Shown piece after piece: positions 16,709 to 29,469 of a stretch of DNA of 64,000 bases (positions are counted from its first letter, which is position 1; each line of letters begins with the position of its first letter). The DNA is from a virus. Both the position numbers and the translations under genes were made by a program. The stretch is taken from positions 1 through 64,000 of the IMG/VR virus record IMGVR_UViG_3300032249_001461; one strand, written 5' to 3'. A model generated the notes under the pieces. That model had not been told where the DNA came from and made no database searches. It saw only the letters and a list, made by a program, of their open reading frames with translations.

Positions 16709-18136
16709 ATGCAAGCTAATGCCAAGTTTCTTAATGAGGCGAGGGAGCTGGAATCTCGTTGGGCGCAAACAGGTTTGCTAGAGAACATAAGCGACAAGTA
16801 CACACGTTCTTGCACTGCCGTTCTCCTCGAAAACCAGCGTCTCATCAACGAGAGCTCAACCGACTCGGGCGACGTAGCCCAGTTCAAGAGAATCTCGATT
16901 CCGCTCGTTCGCAGAATATATCCGCAGCTTATCGCCAACAAGGTGGTCTCGGTCCAGCCGCTACTCGGCCCGACCGGCCTAGTGTACTACCTCCGTTTTA
17001 GATACGGCAGCAACAAGGGCAGCGTCCGTGGAGCCAGCAAGGCTGGATTCCCCGGCGACGACGCCAACTCGCTCCAGCAGCTCGCCTCGGGCGATGCCAA
17101 CCTGAGCGTCTACTACTCGCACCAGTTCGTCGAGAACGAGTCGAGCTCAGTTGACGCGGGCGGCACCAGCTCGACGTTCGTGCTCGAGCACACCCCGGTT
17201 CTTGCTGGCACCGTGACCGGCACCGTGTACGACGGAAGCGTCGCAGTCCAGACCTTCGTGGTCTCGGAGAGCGGCACCTTCACGTTCCACGATGTCGGCA
17301 CCCCCGCCAACAAGGCGACCGTCGGTTCGTTGAACCTCACCACGGGCGAACTCGCCCTGACGTGGAACAACGACCCGGGTCCGAACCGTGTTGTTGTCTC
17401 GTACGAGTACAACATGGAGTGCAACCAGGACCTCCCCGAAATCAACCTCGTCGTTGAGTCGGAAGAGATCGCTGCCAAGACCAGAAAGCTCAAGGCCGTG
17501 TGGAGCTACGAGGCCCAGCAGGACCTCCGCAGCCAGCACAACCTCGACGCCGAGGCTGAACTCACCGCCGTCCTGGCACAGGAGATCAACCTTGAAATCG
17601 ACCGTGAGGTTCTCTCGGACCTGCGTAACAACGCCGGCACCGTCGCCTCGTGGGACTTCAATACCGCCCTTGGTGATACCATCAAGGAAAAGTATGAGTC
17701 GCTCTATGTCAAGGTAGTTGAGGTCAGCAACGTGGTGCATCGCAAGACGCTCCGCGGTGGCTGCAACTGGCTCGTGACCAGCCCCGAAGTCGCCTCGATC
17801 TTTGAGACGGCCACCGCTGGTTTCGCTCCGGCTCCCTCGGAAGGTTTCACATCGTCGCTCGGCATCCAGTATGTCGGCACCGTGAACAACCGTTGGAGGC
17901 TCTACAAGGATCCGCTGTTCCCGACGGGACAGATCCTCATGGGCTATAAGGGCGACAGCTATATGGACAGTGGTTACTTCTACTGCCCGTACGTGCCACT
18001 CACCCAGACCCCAGTTGTCCTCGACCCAGAGTCCTTTTGCCCACGCAAGGGAATACTCACGAGGTATGGGAAGAAACTCCTTCGTGAGGGTGCCAAGTTT
18101 TACGCACGCCTCAGCGTAGCCAATTTTGTGATTTAG
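16709..18136 (+). CDS. Major capsid protein (T4 gp23-like)
   Basis: A 475-residue protein with an aaggag Shine-Dalgarno. The C-terminal half matches gp23: KTRKLKAVWSYEAQQDLRSQH, DAEAELTAVLAQEINLEIDRE and GYKGDSYMDSGYFYCPYVP. The HK97 fold of gp23 forms the head shell. The first ~50 residues contain candidate gp21 sites (FLNEAR, RLINES) that would be removed on maturation. An extra beta-rich stretch near residues 150-235 (VAVQTFVVSESGTFTFHDVG) could be the surface insertion domain. Two strong terminators follow immediately, consistent with very high expression. Confidence 0.95.
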   Translation: MQANAKFLNEARELESRWAQTGLLENISDKYTRSCTAVLLENQRLINESSTDSGDVAQFKRISIPLVRRIYPQLIANKVVSVQPLLGPTGLVYYLRFRYGSNKGSVRGASKAGFPGDDANSLQQLASGDANLSVYYSHQFVENESSSVDAGGTSSTFVLEHTPVLAGTVTGTVYDGSVAVQTFVVSESGTFTFHDVGTPANKATVGSLNLTTGELALTWNNDPGPNRVVVSYEYNMECNQDLPEINLVVESEEIAAKTRKLKAVWSYEAQQDLRSQHNLDAEAELTAVLAQEINLEIDREVLSDLRNNAGTVASWDFNTALGDTIKEKYESLYVKVVEVSNVVHRKTLRGGCNWLVTSPEVASIFETATAGFAPAPSEGFTSSLGIQYVGTVNNRWRLYKDPLFPTGQILMGYKGDSYMDSGYFYCPYVPLTQTPVVLDPESFCPRKGILTRYGKKLLREGAKFYARLSVANFVI

Positions 18137-18330: not shown

Positions 18331-18669
18331 ATGTACCAAGTCAAATGCCCCGAGTGTGGCCAAGAAAGAGTCGTAAGGGCCAAAAAGAAATGGATGGACG
18401 ACGGTCTTGTCAAAATCTGTATGAGCTGCTGTCAGAAGGGAAAGAAGAAAAGTCCCGAGACGCTTGCCAAGCTATCCGAAATAGCGAAGCGCCAACAAAC
18501 CCCCGAACTGATTGAGAAGAAGAGGCAGTTCATGAAAGACCACCCAGAGTGCTGGCAAGGCAAACTGGTGCCGGGTTTGGGTGGCGGGTGGAACAAGGGC
18601 ATGCATACGGACGAGGAGACTCTGAAGAAGATTTCTGAAGGTGTCAGGAAGGCAAAGGAGAAGAAATAA
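18331..18669 (+). CDS. NUMOD3-type zinc-binding DNA-binding protein, homing-associated
   Basis: A 112-residue protein preceded by aggagg. It begins with a zinc-binding pattern C-P-E-C ... C-M-S-C-C and then carries NUMOD3-like segments (SPETLAKLSEIAKRQ; GMHTDEETLKKISEGVRKAK), the short helical DNA-binding repeats found in homing endonucleases. No nuclease motif remains. Its TAA overlaps the ATG of the next gene, so it could be the DNA-binding subunit or a split-off N-terminus of the neighbouring nuclease. The pair sits right after the capsid gene, a usual homing-gene position. Confidence 0.6.
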   Translation: MYQVKCPECGQERVVRAKKKWMDDGLVKICMSCCQKGKKKSPETLAKLSEIAKRQQTPELIEKKRQFMKDHPECWQGKLVPGLGGGWNKGMHTDEETLKKISEGVRKAKEKK

Positions 18670-19784
18670 TGAACATAGAAGAACTTGAAAAAAAATACGA
18701 GGAATGCGGATTCAGGGATAAGATTTGCGTTCCGTGCGACATTGAGGGGTGTGGACGGCATTCTTGGACAAATAAGGATTCGGCAATACGCAACATCAGA
18801 AAGAACGGATTTTTCAGGTGTAGAATCTGCTCCTATTCGGACGAAAGCAGAAAGAAGATAGCAGAAGCCAGTTCCTACAAACGATCACCAGAAACCTGCC
18901 AGAAAATGGCAGAGGCCAAGAAAGCCTTCTACAGAACTGACGAGGGAAAGAACCTCAAGAAGAAGCTTTCCATCATGGCTGCTGAGAACCACTCCCAGAA
19001 CAAGTACGAAAAATCAAAGAGGAGAGGCGTTTTCCAGTCCAAGAAGACCGGCAGGAACCTCTCCTATGACTCCTCCTACGAACTGCGTCTGTGCTGGATG
19101 CTAGACTCAGACGAGGAAGTAGCAGATTTTGAAACCCAGATTGGCTTCCGCATAGACGGCCACGGGAGGTGTCTAGATTGCTTGGTGACCTACAAGGACG
19201 GAAGAAAGAAGGCCATAGAGGTAAAGCCCAAGCAGAGGCTTGACGAATTTGCCCACCAGATTGACGACAGTCGCCGTCACGCCACACAAAAAGGCTGGGG
19301 GTTCCAGGTGATGACGGAGGAAGACCTCGGTATGAACTGCGACCAGATTCGCACGTGGGCAGACGAATACCGCACCAAGGTAACGGGGATTGACTACAAC
19401 GCCTACAGAGACGAGACCATAAGGAGGAAGTCAAAAAAGTTCTACGACACCCACATCGCCACCGACAAGGTCTCTGTCTACTGCGAGTATTGCAAGGAGG
19501 ATCACAATCCCCTCCGGCTCACATACGACAAGAACATAGCCCGCAACGGCCGGTACATCTGCGAGCGCGAGGGGGGTCACATAGCGGGCAGCAGGCCAAA
19601 GAAGAAGAAGGTGAACCCCCATGCCGCTTCGGGATCCAAGGAATGCTTGGGGTGCAAGCAGGTGTTGCCCTTCTCGGAATACGGCCTGGACAAGTCCAGG
19701 AGTGACGGTTACGCCAGCAAGTGCAAGGAGTGCAGGAGGGTGGCTGCGAATGAGAAATATGCGGGGAAGAGGTCTGATCTCTAG
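18669..19784 (+). CDS. Free-standing homing endonuclease, NUMOD3 + PD-(D/E)XK type
   Basis: A 371-residue protein. The N-terminal part has cysteine pairs and a NUMOD3-like helix (SPETCQKMAEAKKAFYR). The middle has a TnsA-like PD-(D/E)XK core: YDSSYELRLCWMLD (Glu), HGRCLDCLVTYKDG (Asp) and KKAIEVKPKQR (E-x-K). The C-terminus has two more cysteine motifs (VYCEYCKEDH; CLGCKQVLP and CKECRR) probably binding zinc. Such architecture is that of phage homing endonucleases that cut capsid-gene or nearby alleles lacking the element. It is coupled by overlap to the small NUMOD3 gene before it. Confidence 0.75.
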   Translation: MNIEELEKKYEECGFRDKICVPCDIEGCGRHSWTNKDSAIRNIRKNGFFRCRICSYSDESRKKIAEASSYKRSPETCQKMAEAKKAFYRTDEGKNLKKKLSIMAAENHSQNKYEKSKRRGVFQSKKTGRNLSYDSSYELRLCWMLDSDEEVADFETQIGFRIDGHGRCLDCLVTYKDGRKKAIEVKPKQRLDEFAHQIDDSRRHATQKGWGFQVMTEEDLGMNCDQIRTWADEYRTKVTGIDYNAYRDETIRRKSKKFYDTHIATDKVSVYCEYCKEDHNPLRLTYDKNIARNGRYICEREGGHIAGSRPKKKKVNPHAASGSKECLGCKQVLPFSEYGLDKSRSDGYASKCKECRRVAANEKYAGKRSDL

Positions 19785-19785
19785 T

Positions 19786-21183
19786 CTACTTCAGAATCAA
19801 CTCCAAATAATTCTTAACCGCCTCTACGGCCTCGTTCGGTGCGACATCAAACCATTCTCCGTTCAAATGACGCTTGGCGAAATGTCTGTGCATTAGTCGC
19901 TCAAAGGAAGTCATGTTTTCACACTTAAATTTAGCCACCATTTTGAGTTTTCTAGGGTTTCCAGTTTGAAGCGCGGGCATTCTTTTTGAAGGCGAATTGG
20001 ATAATCCTATTTTTGTTGGGCCGCTTTCTTGATTTTCACAAATAACATATACAAAACCTTTGTTTTTACACTCGGCTCCGCCAATTTTTGTTTTTCTTAT
20101 TGATCTCGGATTGATTGAAAACCCCATAAACTTTGAATAGTTAGAAAGCAATTTATTTACTCCTCCGCTTGTCAGAGGTCCTCGTATGCCTATAAAAACT
20201 TTGTCACTTAAAGTCGGGGGTCGGACATCAAGCCAAGCGGCAAGTGCCCGAGAAGATTCAGAATTGAGTGCAACTATGTTGGCACCTTTTTTGTTGCAAA
20301 AGACAATCTTGATCAGGCCGCTGGAGACATCCAAGTCTGACAATTTCAATTCTACTAATTCGCTTGAGAGGCATCCTGTGTCAATAAGCACATGGAAAAT
20401 CGCACTGCTCCTCGTGTCTCCACGAGCCTTTGCCTCAAGAAGCAATTTGTTTATTTCTTCTTTGTCAAGTAATTTTGGCTTGATCTTTGTCCTTCCCCTC
20501 ATCTCCTTCACGAACTTTGCAGGATTAGAATTCAATTCACCTTTCTCCACAAGCCAATTAAAAAACTTACGAACTAAAACCACATTTCTGTTGACTGTAG
20601 AGTATGACAACCCAGATTGTCCGATTGAAAAAACTTGAAAATCTACAAAATCTTGTGTGACAATGTCTTTTGAGGAAAATGATTTATATTTGTGTTTATT
20701 TATCCAAATCATAAATCTGCGTAGGTCTTTGTGAATTGCCCTAGTTGTACTATCTTTGATGTTTTGTTCTTCGATAAACTGGGCGAATAGTATTTTTTCT
20801 TGATCGCCACAATTTACTCCTTTAAATGTTTTTGTGACCATTTCAGATTTGCTGATTTTCTTTCTTTCTGCGGGCAAACGAGGTTGTAAATTGAGGGGTG
20901 GAAGTTTGGGTTTGCCGGATATTTTGACATTCTTTTTTTTGTGTCTGCCTGCCCTGAAGAATATGATCTGACCGTTGATTCCGACATTGTTGTGGTGAAC
21001 ATATAGAATAATTTTCTGTTGTTCTCGGGTGAAGTAAGGCCTTCCTTTCTCGTCTCTATTTGGCAAAGGAAAAATGGTTCCAACAAGCTCGTTGAATCTC
21101 GTTCGGCTCATGCCGATCATCTTGGCCGCCCCGGATATTGATACGAAATCTCGCAATTCGTCCATGTTCATGAATTCTTTCAA
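19786..21183 (-). CDS. HTH + degenerate tyrosine recombinase + T5orf172 GIY-YIG fusion
   Basis: A 465-residue protein with four parts: an excisionase/MerR-like HTH (residues ~10-80), a core-binding domain of tyrosine recombinases (~130-225), a recombinase catalytic fold (~235-370) and a T5orf172/MUG113 GIY-YIG domain (~376-447). The recombinase lacks its key residues: the first Arg is Leu272 in DTGCLSSEL, the H-x-x-R-H box reads NPRSIRKT, and the nucleophile Tyr region is replaced by the nuclease domain. The GIY-YIG part is complete (GFVYVI, KIGLS, R401, E429, H432, GEWF). It is therefore probably a site-specific nuclease using a recombinase scaffold for DNA recognition. The gene is more AT-rich than its surroundings. 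Confidence 0.7.
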   Translation of the reverse strand: MKEFMNMDELRDFVSISGAAKMIGMSRTRFNELVGTIFPLPNRDEKGRPYFTREQQKIILYVHHNNVGINGQIIFFRAGRHKKKNVKISGKPKLPPLNLQPRLPAERKKISKSEMVTKTFKGVNCGDQEKILFAQFIEEQNIKDSTTRAIHKDLRRFMIWINKHKYKSFSSKDIVTQDFVDFQVFSIGQSGLSYSTVNRNVVLVRKFFNWLVEKGELNSNPAKFVKEMRGRTKIKPKLLDKEEINKLLLEAKARGDTRSSAIFHVLIDTGCLSSELVELKLSDLDVSSGLIKIVFCNKKGANIVALNSESSRALAAWLDVRPPTLSDKVFIGIRGPLTSGGVNKLLSNYSKFMGFSINPRSIRKTKIGGAECKNKGFVYVICENQESGPTKIGLSNSPSKRMPALQTGNPRKLKMVAKFKCENMTSFERLMHRHFAKRHLNGEWFDVAPNEAVEAVKNYLELILK

Positions 21184-21261
21184 CTATAATATCCTATCCT
21201 ATATGATTCCTTGTCATTCAGCAAGAGCTGTCGGCCAACGAAAAATACGCTCTGAAAATCG

Positions 21262-21273
21262 CTATATAGGCGT
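21262..21273 (+). promoter_or_regulatory. CTATATA box 5 bp before an ATG (leaderless-type promoter)
   Basis: CTATATA at 21262-21268, then ggcgt, then the ATG at 21274. No Shine-Dalgarno fits between them. If transcription starts at the distance usual for a -10/TATA-type box, the mRNA begins at or inside the start codon. Confidence 0.5.
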
Positions 21274-21729
21274 ATGAAGACTTTCAATGAATGGCTGAAG
21301 GGCAGAGTTATATCGGAAAACGATCCCGACTACCGGGAGCCGAGCTTCTCCAAGATATTGGGCGAGGACGGCGACGAGCCGTTCACGGTAGAGGTGGATG
21401 TTGCCGAGGGTCACTGGACGGTTTCTGGTCCGCTGTGGGCGGTTGGATATGTGATGAACGGGTCGGAGCCCAAGGCGGGCGGCCCGGTGCAGGAAGAAAA
21501 GGGCGTTGTAATGTTCAAGACGCCCGGCAGGAGGCTTGAAAATCTTCCTCCCGCCCTCAAGATGGCGGCTACAACCTGGATAGACAAGGAGGTTGAGTGG
21601 TCCATACAGAACTACGAGGAAGAAGACCCGAGGGACTACGACGACCGAGACGACTACAATCCCGATCCTGATGGTCATGGTTATTGGGACAACTACTGGA
21701 ATCACGGACCCGGACGCGACCCGGATTGA
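21274..21729 (+). CDS. Tagged acidic protein, candidate internal head protein
   Basis: A 151-residue protein starting MKTFNEWLKGRVISEN, close to the T4 internal-protein tag MKTYQEFIAEA; ISE-N gives a candidate gp21 cleavage site. The rest is acidic with a very Asp/Tyr-rich end (DYDDRDDYNPDPDG). No enzyme motif is seen. It stands alone behind a leaderless-type promoter. The packaging role is inferred only from the tag. Confidence 0.55.
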   Translation: MKTFNEWLKGRVISENDPDYREPSFSKILGEDGDEPFTVEVDVAEGHWTVSGPLWAVGYVMNGSEPKAGGPVQEEKGVVMFKTPGRRLENLPPALKMAATTWIDKEVEWSIQNYEEEDPRDYDDRDDYNPDPDGHGYWDNYWNHGPGRDPD

Positions 21730-22697: not shown

Positions 22698-23099
22698 TCA
22701 CCCTTGATTCTTAATATATTCTTGGATTGTTTTGGTGGAAGCGTCACCTGTTGAGCATACGAAATAGCCATCACTCCAGAATGTCTTCTCTTTTCAGAAG
22801 TGCTTCTTCAAATACACTTCATAGTTTTTCCAAGCATAGAAAGTTGTCTGCTGTTTCAATAGCATGACTAGTTTGGATGGTGCCAATGTGGGTGGAATGT
22901 CTACAAGCAAATGCAGATGATCTTTGTCTGATTCCATCTCGTCAATCTTCACATTGTTCTTGTTACAAACATCGTAGCACCACTGCTTGATATCATCGCT
23001 CAAGTCATTTACGAGCAGTCTTTTTCTGTACTTCACCACAAATATGATGTGCAGTTTGATAAGGAATTTGTGCCTATTTTTAGAGTGGTATTCAACCAT
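22698..23099 (-). pseudogene. tnpA: IS200-type transposase TnpA with in-frame stop
   Basis: The full frame would give 133 residues, the normal TnpA length. The HUH motif HLHLLV lies at residues 61-66, preceded by the usual DEMESDKDH. At 22794-22796 a TGA replaces the tryptophan codon expected after YLKKHF; the frame then continues KEKTFWSDGYF and STKTIQEYIKNQG to a second TGA. The catalytic tyrosine of this family is in that last segment (QEYI), so the truncated 101-residue product cannot act. TGG to TGA is a single transition. TGA serves as a normal stop elsewhere in the window, so recoding is unlikely. Confidence 0.85.
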
Positions 23100-24301
23100 A
23101 CATTTATGTAGTAAAATTTTTTTGAGAATTTTACATAAATCTTACTATATAAGGATATGAAGGCTACCCGGAACATCAAGTATAGGATATATGCCAAAAA
23201 TGGCAAGTTGAAAAAACTGCAACAGACGCTTGATGTATGCCGTAGCACCTATAACAAGGTGTTGGAAACACGAAAAAACAGTTGGGAAAAAGACAAGAAA
23301 AGCCTAGGAGTTTACGACTGCCATAATCTCATTAAAACTTGGAAGATAGAGGGTGTTCACTCGCAGGTTTTACAAAATGTTTCAGCCAGAGTTGATCTAG
23401 CATTCCAAGGATTCTTCCGAAGACTAAAAGAAAGCAAAGACAAGGCTGGATATCCAAGATTCAAAAGTTACGACAGATACAACTCTTTTTGTTTTCCTCA
23501 GTCTGGATTCAAACTTACTGGCAATAAACTTTACCTTTCAAAGATTGGCGAAGTAAAAGTAATCAAACATAGAGAACTAATTGGCAAAGTAAAGACTTGC
23601 ACCATCAAGCGAGAGGCGAACGATTGGTATGTGATTTTTTCCTGCGATATGGAAGTAATACCGCAGGAAAGGATTGAGACAAGGGCGGTTGGGATTGATG
23701 TGGGTTGTATAGATTTTGCAACAATGAGTGATGGCTCAACAATAAAAAACCCACACTACTTGAGGCAGTCAGAAGACGAACTCAAAAAGATTCAATCAAA
23801 ATACAGCAAATTAAAGAATCTTCCCAGAGAAGACAAGAAGAAGATTAAAACTAAAAAGCAACTTGTGAACCTTCACCTAAAGGTCAAAAATCAAAGAAAA
23901 GACTTCTTGCACAAGACAAGCAGAAGTCTGGTAAACAAATATTCAGTCATCTGCGTTGAGAAGTTAAGCGTAAAAAACATGCTCAAGGATAACTGGAGAA
24001 AACTGAACAAAAGCATACTTGATAGTGGCTGGACTAGTTTTCGCAATATGCTACATTACAAAGCGGAAGAGGCTGGTTGTGTAGTAGCGGAAGTGAAGCC
24101 AGAATACACAAGTCAGATATGCAGCGGTTGCGGAATTAAGGTTAAAAAAGAACTGGGCGAGCGAAATCACGACTGTTTTGCCTGTGGATTACAGTTAAGC
24201 CGTGACCTTAATGCTGCAAAAAACATATTAAGAGTTGGAATGAACTCTTTAGACAGCAATGTCTTAGAAGCCCACTCCCTTTAGGGGGTGGGAGCATTCA
24301 C
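22702..24301 (+). mobile_element. IS200/IS605-family element (tnpA broken, tnpB intact)
   Basis: The element holds divergent tnpA and tnpB. A TTCAC lies at 22697-22701, directly outside the tnpA end, and another at 24297-24301 closes the tnpB end, which is the layout of a target-flanking motif and right-end cleavage site. The right end has a perfect-looking subterminal hairpin cccactccc-ttta-gggggtggg (24271-24292). There is no target duplication, as expected for this single-strand transposing family. Exact ends are inferred, not proven. The left end abuts a tagged gene and the right end supplies the stop codon of the ASCH gene. Confidence 0.75.
23157..24284 (+). CDS. tnpB: TnpB RNA-guided nuclease (IS605 OrfB)
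   Basis: A full-length 375-residue TnpB. RuvC residues are all present: D181 in GIDVG, E268 in CVEKLSVKNM and D350 in SRDLNAAKN. The zinc ribbon uses C322/C325 and C340/C343. Family members cut DNA guided by an RNA made from the right end of the element, and thereby keep the IS in place. The stop codon TAG lies in the loop of the right-end hairpin. CTATATA stands 5 bp before the ATG, together with a weak aggat. The nuclease looks intact although its partner tnpA is dead. Confidence 0.92.
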   Translation: MKATRNIKYRIYAKNGKLKKLQQTLDVCRSTYNKVLETRKNSWEKDKKSLGVYDCHNLIKTWKIEGVHSQVLQNVSARVDLAFQGFFRRLKESKDKAGYPRFKSYDRYNSFCFPQSGFKLTGNKLYLSKIGEVKVIKHRELIGKVKTCTIKREANDWYVIFSCDMEVIPQERIETRAVGIDVGCIDFATMSDGSTIKNPHYLRQSEDELKKIQSKYSKLKNLPREDKKKIKTKKQLVNLHLKVKNQRKDFLHKTSRSLVNKYSVICVEKLSVKNMLKDNWRKLNKSILDSGWTSFRNMLHYKAEEAGCVVAEVKPEYTSQICSGCGIKVKKELGERNHDCFACGLQLSRDLNAAKNILRVGMNSLDSNVLEAHSL

Positions 24302-28494: not shown

Positions 28495-29469
28495 TCAGAG
28501 TATCTGTCTGTTTATTTCTTCTGTGATTGCCTTTATTAAGGGAATTCCCACGGAATTTCCTACTTGTCTGTAGGCGTTCCCCTTGTTCGGGCTGATTTTG
28601 AATTTCTTCGGGAAACCCTGGAGCGAGTAGCATTCCCTGATCGTGAGTTTTCTGACCTTTGCTCCGTCGTATATCCAGAATCTGCCCGCGGTTTCCTGGG
28701 ATGAGAGCGTGGGGTGCGTCCCCGAGACGTGGTAGATCCTGTTGGGCTGTTTGTGGACTCTGGAGAGGTGTTCCGTATTCGGTCTTACTCCGCTCTTCCT
28801 GGAGGGCTTGTTCCTGTATCCGGCGAAGATGAGTCCCGATTTCTGTCTCTTGAGGAGACCTTCTTCGAGGATTGTGTAGGTTGACGGATCAAGCGATTCA
28901 GATGTTTCGTTTTCTAGGATGTCTTTGATGTTCTTTTTTTTGAACTTCTTCTTTTTCACCGGGGTGAAGTCAAATGGCTTGTCTTTGGAGGCTACGATGA
29001 TCGTTCTTTCCCTGTTCTGGGCGAGTCCGAAGTCCGCCGTGTTCAGAACCTCGTGGGAGAAGTGGTATCCTTGTTCTTCTAGCGAACTTTTGATCACCTC
29101 CAGGGTTCTTCCCTTGTCGTGGTGCACTAGGTTCTTTACATTTTCCAGAAAGACAACCTTCGGCTTTTTGGCCTTGGCTATTCTGAGGACATCAAAGAAC
29201 AGGGTGCCTCGGGTATCCTCGAATCCTCTTTTGTTTCCCGCGATGCTGAATGCTTGGCACGGGAATCCGCCCGCAAGGACATCGTGGTCGGGGATGCTGT
29301 TTTCGTCGGCTTGTTTTATGTCCCCCGCCGGATCGTCGCCGAAATTGGCCTTGTAGACCTCCCTGCACGATGGGTTCAGTTCCGAGGAGTAGACGCATTT
29401 TCCGCCCGAGGAATCCAACGCGATCCTGAATCCGCCTATCCCCGCAAAAAGGTCAATGTACTTGAACAT
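28495..29469 (-). CDS. Orphan C5-cytosine DNA methyltransferase
   Basis: A 324-residue enzyme with IDLFAGIGGFRIAL, GGFPCQAFSIAG (C71 nucleophile), VFLENVKNLV, QNRERTIIVA and the C-terminal QVGNSVGIPL. It differs clearly from the other m5C enzyme at 25135 and has no nuclease neighbour, so it is an orphan that could protect phage DNA from a host restriction enzyme of the same target. It begins a three-gene minus-strand run with the lipoprotein-like and phosphoesterase genes. Confidence 0.92.
   Translation of the reverse strand: MFKYIDLFAGIGGFRIALDSSGGKCVYSSELNPSCREVYKANFGDDPAGDIKQADENSIPDHDVLAGGFPCQAFSIAGNKRGFEDTRGTLFFDVLRIAKAKKPKVVFLENVKNLVHHDKGRTLEVIKSSLEEQGYHFSHEVLNTADFGLAQNRERTIIVASKDKPFDFTPVKKKKFKKKNIKDILENETSESLDPSTYTILEEGLLKRQKSGLIFAGYRNKPSRKSGVRPNTEHLSRVHKQPNRIYHVSGTHPTLSSQETAGRFWIYDGAKVRKLTIRECYSLQGFPKKFKISPNKGNAYRQVGNSVGIPLIKAITEEINRQIL

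Follow-up and report, generated by a model that had tools for sequence, protein, structure and literature searches.

A gene beside the main capsid gene of a large T4-like virus of bacteria joins, in one reading frame, a tyrosine recombinase to a GIY-YIG nuclease, and the question that it raises is what a recombinase apparently deprived of its catalytic residues may do at the front of a nuclease. The gene lies in a 64,000-nt stretch of DNA, analysed as a whole and hereafter called the window. It runs for 465 codons from a TTG at 21183 with no internal stop, an ATG at 21171 or 21165 being the likelier start. From the N- to the C-terminus, the predicted protein contains an HTH-like region, for which evidence is weak, a truncated XerC/XerD-like tyrosine recombinase and a complete GIY-YIG domain of the T5orf172 type. 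An earlier note on this DNA had proposed that recombinase and nuclease share a gene, and the open reading frame, alignments, profiles and predicted folds all agree with it.

The locus behind the capsid gene

The features around the fusion gene are the following:

16709..18136, plus strand: gp23 major capsid protein gene (Pfam Gp23, 1e-84; PHROG major head protein)
18331..18669, plus strand: ORF with a NUMOD3 motif, first part of a homing-type gene (in L007 and L012, a single ORF spans it and the nuclease)
18669..19784, plus strand: TnsA-like (PD-(D/E)XK) nuclease with a zinc-ribbon tail, a homing-type gene found 3' of gp23 in many relatives
19786..21183, minus strand: fusion gene
21231..21276, plus strand: leader that marks the right border of the insert; homologous to the TnsA-like gene's 3' tail
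21274..21729, plus strand: MKTF-x-EWL-type ORF, neighbour of the empty site (such tagged ORFs directly follow the TnsA-like gene in six relatives)

The fusion gene is convergent with the TnsA-like gene and lies 2 bp from it. The claim of homing genes next to the capsid gene holds for this locus, where gp23 and the TnsA-like/NUMOD3 nuclease gene are adjacent. The latter combination of a TnsA-like PD-(D/E)XK nuclease with NUMOD3 and a zinc ribbon is found 3' of gp23 in many loci, as one ORF or as two, and is probably a homing gene family in its own right; its resemblance to TnsA is confined to the nuclease. The variable region also contains an IS200/IS605-type TnpA and TnpB pair (22794-24284), which is as AT-rich as the fusion gene. 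A tRNA-Pyl called by ARAGORN at 29048-29125 on the plus strand of the window, within a minus-strand ORF (28495-29469), is probably spurious. A protein search of the 99.9-kb record for tyrosine recombinases found the fusion gene alone, and no inverted repeats of the kind that form a recombinase-type site were detected in 19700-21300.

The base composition of the gene sets it apart from its surroundings. Its GC content is 39.7%, versus 52% for the window, and differs little by segment (42% for residues 1-100, 38% for residues 101-365 and 41% for residues 366-465). Equally AT-rich windows of 1398 bases amount to about 2% and, besides the fusion gene itself, all of them lie at 22.2-24.4 kb, within the IS605-type element. 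Likewise, GC3 is 0.37-0.51 in the fusion gene as against 0.69 in the TnsA-like gene and 0.76 in gp23. Low GC and low GC3, similar along the whole length, make the fusion gene look foreign, and foreign as one unit.

The two halves of the protein

Within the fusion gene, all on the minus strand, the following features were assigned:

20992..21165, minus strand: HTH-like N-terminal region, residues 7-64 (helices 7-23, 27-37 and 53-64 in a low-confidence model)
20539..20805, minus strand: core-binding (CB, SAM-like) domain, residues 127-215 (Phage_int_SAM_1, XerD alignment, model pLDDT about 62-87)
20089..20472, minus strand: truncated recombinase catalytic (CAT) domain, predicted to be catalytically dead, residues 238-365 (Phage_integrase profile, model, Foldseek)
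20368..20370, minus strand: Leu272 at the Arg I position (recombinase alignments)
20293..20295, minus strand: Asn297, probable substitute for the beta-hairpin Lys (alignments; hairpin register uncertain)
20104..20106, minus strand: Arg360 at the His II position of HxxR (recombinase alignments)
20095..20097, minus strand: Arg363, the Arg II residue, kept (recombinase alignments)
19810..20058, minus strand: complete GIY-YIG (T5orf172) nuclease domain, residues 376-458 (Pfam, residue conservation, model pLDDT 87)

Pfam, PHROGs and NCBIfam concur in identifying residues 129-365 as a XerC/XerD-like tyrosine recombinase. Phage_int_SAM_1 matches residues 136-215 (1.6e-4), Phage_integrase matches residues 238-365 (4e-11, reaching only profile positions 2-135 of 172), and the NCBIfam XerC and XerD models match residues 136-364 (5.5e-26 and 2.5e-25) with scores far under their equivalog cut-offs. 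A model of the full protein, built from a seven-row alignment that held integrase rows only, has pLDDT values of 66-88 in the CB helices from residue 190 and of 80-91 in most of residues 240-360. Foldseek places this model with XerA, XerH, Tn1549 Int, Cre and lambda Int (E 1e-6 to 5e-9, probability 1.0), with TM-scores of 0.4-0.57 depending on the target, which are moderate because the placement of the domains in the model is uncertain. Judging from the model, the CB and CAT recombinase fold is present, with the CAT domain truncated. For the recombinase half, no close relative was found in INPHARED, PLSDB or the pattern scans of GTDB and IMG/VR, the best matches being about 25-32% identical.

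Catalytic positions were read by aligning the protein with XerD, XerA and five other recombinases. From the catalytic set R-K-H-R-(H/W)-Y, Arg II alone is clearly kept. The loss of Arg I to Leu272, proposed by the earlier note, is seen in these alignments. The same note had read NPRSIRKT as a lost H-x-x-R-H; His II is indeed replaced by Arg360 and the third His/Trp is absent, but the Lys of IRKT does not mark a catalytic loss, since HSIRKT also occurs in a phage recombinase that has all the other motifs. The third His/Trp and the nucleophilic Tyr are missing because the chain enters the GIY-YIG domain after Thr365, so that the recombinase Tyr disappears where the nuclease begins, as had been claimed. 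About ten residues separate Thr365 from the start of the GIY-YIG domain, and Tyr379, located 16 residues beyond Arg II, is the Tyr of the GIY-YIG motif. The lost catalytic residues were thus not found in displaced positions, save possibly the beta-hairpin Lys, whose loss is uncertain because Lys298 and Lys299 lie one and two residues from Asn297. To judge from these residues, such a recombinase is incapable of exchanging strands by the mechanism known for the family.

Ahead of the recombinase, the HTH was seen by eye, and helices are in place there in the low-confidence model (pLDDT 53-68); the region has neither a Pfam nor a PDB match.

The nuclease domain is complete. Pfam T5orf172 matches residues 376-458 at 4e-15 over profile positions 1-99 of 101 (56.5 bits versus a cut-off of 20), and MUG113 matches residues 391-458 at 9e-15. 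The domain keeps Y379, K391, G393, R401, E428, H432 and the GEWFD of residues 442-446, all of them near-invariant across 29 relatives, and the full Pfam match together with R401 and E428 accords with the proposal of a complete GIY-YIG nuclease with its R and E; E428 is presumably the catalytic Glu, from what is known of the family. A model of the domain from its own alignment (pLDDT 87) shows the expected strand-strand-helix-strand-helix-helix order. Since Foldseek returned for it only weak matches to Slx1 (probability 0.5, TM 0.44-0.56, E about 1), the case for the nuclease half is carried by sequence families; a PDB profile search with the GIY alignment gave no useful match. On its conserved positions, the nuclease is intact-looking and a member of the known T5orf172 family.

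Distribution, empty site and insertion

By its capsid protein, the closest named record is the 595-kb uncultured phage LR756511.1 (78%). No similar protein was found in LR756511.1 or in 23 other related records, the sole exception being a remnant in L001. The fusion gene is likewise found in 0 of 80 IMG/VR loci whose gp23 is 82-97% identical, many of which have a TnsA-like gene after gp23. L001 is a fragment of a sister phage (gp23 88% identical in DNA) that carries the TnsA-like gene followed by the last 57 codons only of the fusion gene. Over these codons there are 12 base differences, 9 of them at third positions, a small sample, with dN 0.037, dS 0.25 and dN/dS about 0.15, values that cover part of the nuclease only.

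A comparison with relatives lacking the gene, which the earlier note had suggested as a way to find the empty site, revealed the TnsA-like/MKTF junction in six of them. In L007, L012, L013, L018, L019 and L022, the ATG of an MKTF-type ORF lies within about 12 bp of the TnsA-like stop, and this ORF has as its leader the TnsA-like gene's own 3' tail. The fusion gene is bracketed by this tail (to 19784) and by a second, diverged leader copy (21231-21276), so that the inserted piece would be the fusion gene with no more than about 50 bp besides. The leader copies differ too much to represent a fresh target duplication. Presence in one phage and absence from its close relatives at a single site, a mark of homing genes, is what the fusion gene displays; an exchange between leaders, of which there are several per locus, is as likely an entry route as homing.

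The leader, AACGARAAATAYGC...CTAGATAGGGCATGAA, lies ahead of many MKTF-type ORFs and coincides with the coding tail at the 3' end of the TnsA-like gene. Seven of the 13 exact matches to its core fall at that tail. Sites of the leader outside the window include L012 5260, L014 9868 and L019 7924 and 9673; it is possibly an exchange point for cassettes. In addition, an MKTF-x-EWL-like N-terminal tag is common to otherwise different small ORFs near gp23, both in the window (21274+, 24727+, 29517+, 45716+ and 24281-) and in L007, L012, L014, L018, L019 and L022. The tag occurs 5 times in the window and 41 times in 795 kb of related loci, versus 0 in simple shuffles. The principle of a capsid-targeting sequence has been described for the internal head proteins of T4 (PMC3012670), and by analogy the tagged ORFs may encode ejected head proteins.

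The same architecture was sought more widely, and no second recombinase-T5orf172 fusion was found in INPHARED, in PLSDB or in pattern-limited scans of IMG/VR and GTDB. A tblastn search of INPHARED (50,697 records) and PLSDB (72,556), which would reveal a collinear fusion of moderate similarity, gave 0 matches covering 80% of the query. IMG/VR and GTDB were scanned with the fusion protein and with GIY alignments by way of short peptide patterns; these patterns reach close recombinase relatives or T5orf172 domains with GEWFD only, and "unique" therefore means unique within these searches. Nor was a second fusion present in 296 genomes of one phylum or in 398 genomes of another, where two long ORFs were checked and contained no recombinase. 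Apparent junction-crossing matches in L003, L165, L137 and L138 proved to be an ordinary integrase or to have HTH or unrelated N-termini. Other T5orf172 proteins (L104, L165, L251) have HTH or other N-termini, which fits the known domain shuffling. In L165 (389-994 and 998-1426), the N-terminal HTH of the T5orf172 protein resembles the HTH of the neighbouring ORF, which lies just upstream of a terminase-like gene; this is possibly a second instance in which T5orf172 acquired the DNA-binding part of a neighbour.

A dead recombinase as proposed DNA reader, and its precedents

To the question of function, we propose that this is a mobile, freestanding homing-type T5orf172 nuclease gene in which a catalytically dead XerC/D-like recombinase serves as the DNA-recognition part, an interpretation to which we give an even chance. 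It is favored by the presence of both domains in one frame at high significance; by the loss of Arg I, His II, the third His/Trp and Tyr from a protein that keeps the fold and the DNA-binding scaffold; by the retention of near-invariant GIY-YIG residues, with dN/dS of about 0.15 in 57 codons; and by sporadic presence, foreign GC and the empty site in six relatives. Slot, sporadic spread, minimal insertion and remnant are as a homing gene predicts, while binding, cutting and homing themselves are inferred. The earlier note's possible new class of homing endonuclease goes beyond the data, as the nuclease falls within the T5orf172 family already described.

Of the mechanisms considered, the recombinase as a putative DNA-reading platform for the nuclease has the best support. 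The C-shaped clamp on DNA can persist in a recombinase that is catalytically dead, and the clamp formed by CB and CAT, perhaps with the HTH, would bind one recombinase-type half-site. The GIY-YIG domain, standing in place of the last helices of the recombinase, would then cut DNA near this half-site, at a target that is probably located 3' of gp23 in the hypervariable region, and during co-infection the break in the gene-less allele would be repaired by copying the fusion gene. Given the precedents of TnsF and Odn, a nuclease cutting next to a recombinase-type site is the simplest expectation.

The alternative that survives best, which we nonetheless consider unlikely, is an anti-parasite nuclease in which a captured part of a satellite or prophage integrase directs cuts to the attachment site of a rival or to the binding sites of the integrase. 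Indeed, phage ICP1 has in Odn a T5orf172 nuclease that carries the RepA_N domain of a satellite and cuts the satellite origin (PMC8263062), and the fusion gene is AT-rich and foreign-looking. However, it occupies a homing-gene slot, and the best matches of its recombinase part are about 25-32% identical, versus 42% for the N-terminal domain of Odn and its model; with no near donor integrase found in the collections searched, this role is ranked under homing. Less probable still is an accidental or decaying fusion of a broken integrase remnant and a T5orf172 gene, in which DNA would not be usefully targeted. There is a single example, and its only relative is a 3' remnant, but 465 codons stay open with uniform composition, the recombinase core still scores 5e-26 to XerC with pLDDT mostly 80-91 and with its changes at catalytic positions, and the nuclease part shows a synonymous excess.

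We find it quite improbable that the protein belongs to a recombination or transposition system in which the nuclease assists a recombinase. Tsy transposons do contain YRec, HTH, TnsF and GIY-YIG as separate genes, and their nuclease boosts transposition (PMC10293859). Integrase genes also adjoin GIY-YIG genes in L101, L131, L176 and a few others, but this adjacency (about 7 of about 120 loci) may be chance and was dropped as a sign of functional pairing; moreover, no active tyrosine recombinase is adjacent to the fusion gene, whose neighbours are gp23 and homing-type genes. Finally, an assembly join of an integrase gene and a T5orf172 gene, which the earlier note had named as a possible source of the domain order, is very improbable. 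The junction is known from one contig and absent from every other, but the open frame and AT-rich composition continue alike across it, both gene ends are anchored in one phage locus common to relatives, and L001 shares the 3' end together with the gene next to it.

If the recombinase part does read DNA for the nuclease, then a tyrosine recombinase, whose sites are long and specific, can be put to new use to aim a nuclease within a single chain. The protein may represent a novel design for a site-specific nuclease, with a disabled recombinase clamp aiming a GIY-YIG domain that replaces the catalytic helices, either for homing or for attack on the attachment sites of rivals, a proposal that we hold to be evenly balanced. 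It would join two themes known separately, the choice of targets by dead recombinases, as in TnsF, and the swapping of DNA-binding domains by T5orf172 nucleases, as in Odn and the homing genes of ICP1, and the DNA site could be found by experiment from a single protein.

Among known systems, XerC/XerD recombinases align in CB and CAT with residues 136-365, but the fusion protein differs from them in lacking Arg I, His II, the third His/Trp and Tyr, and in carrying a nuclease in place of the C-terminal helices. TnsF of the Tn6022-type Tn7 elements shares the recombinase fold without a catalytic Tyr, its role being target choice (PMC10293859). Unlike TnsF, which has zinc fingers and a partner transposase, the fusion protein has no zinc-finger match, and no Tn7 transposase was found among the scanned neighbours. 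In Tsy the GIY-YIG gene lies nearby, whereas here dead recombinase and nuclease form one chain. T5orf172 nucleases are known phage homing genes with swapped DNA-binding domains (PMC10448857). Like the fusion, the phage T5orf172 homing endonucleases (ICP1 and others) are sporadic single genes with T5orf172 at one end and, at the other, a DNA-binding part subject to shuffling; that part is mostly a CapR/DUF723/DUF4397 zinc finger or RepA_N in known members (PMC10448857), in contrast to the dead recombinase and HTH-like N-terminus described here. Odn is likewise a T5orf172 chimera with a DNA-binding domain from the protein of another mobile element, and it cuts where the borrowed part binds (PMC8263062). 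In Odn the borrowed part is a replication-initiator domain with an identified donor, whereas in the fusion it derives from a recombinase, for which no donor was found in the collections searched. The pairing of a dead recombinase with T5orf172 in one chain thus appears to be new, while its parts have precedents in Odn and TnsF.
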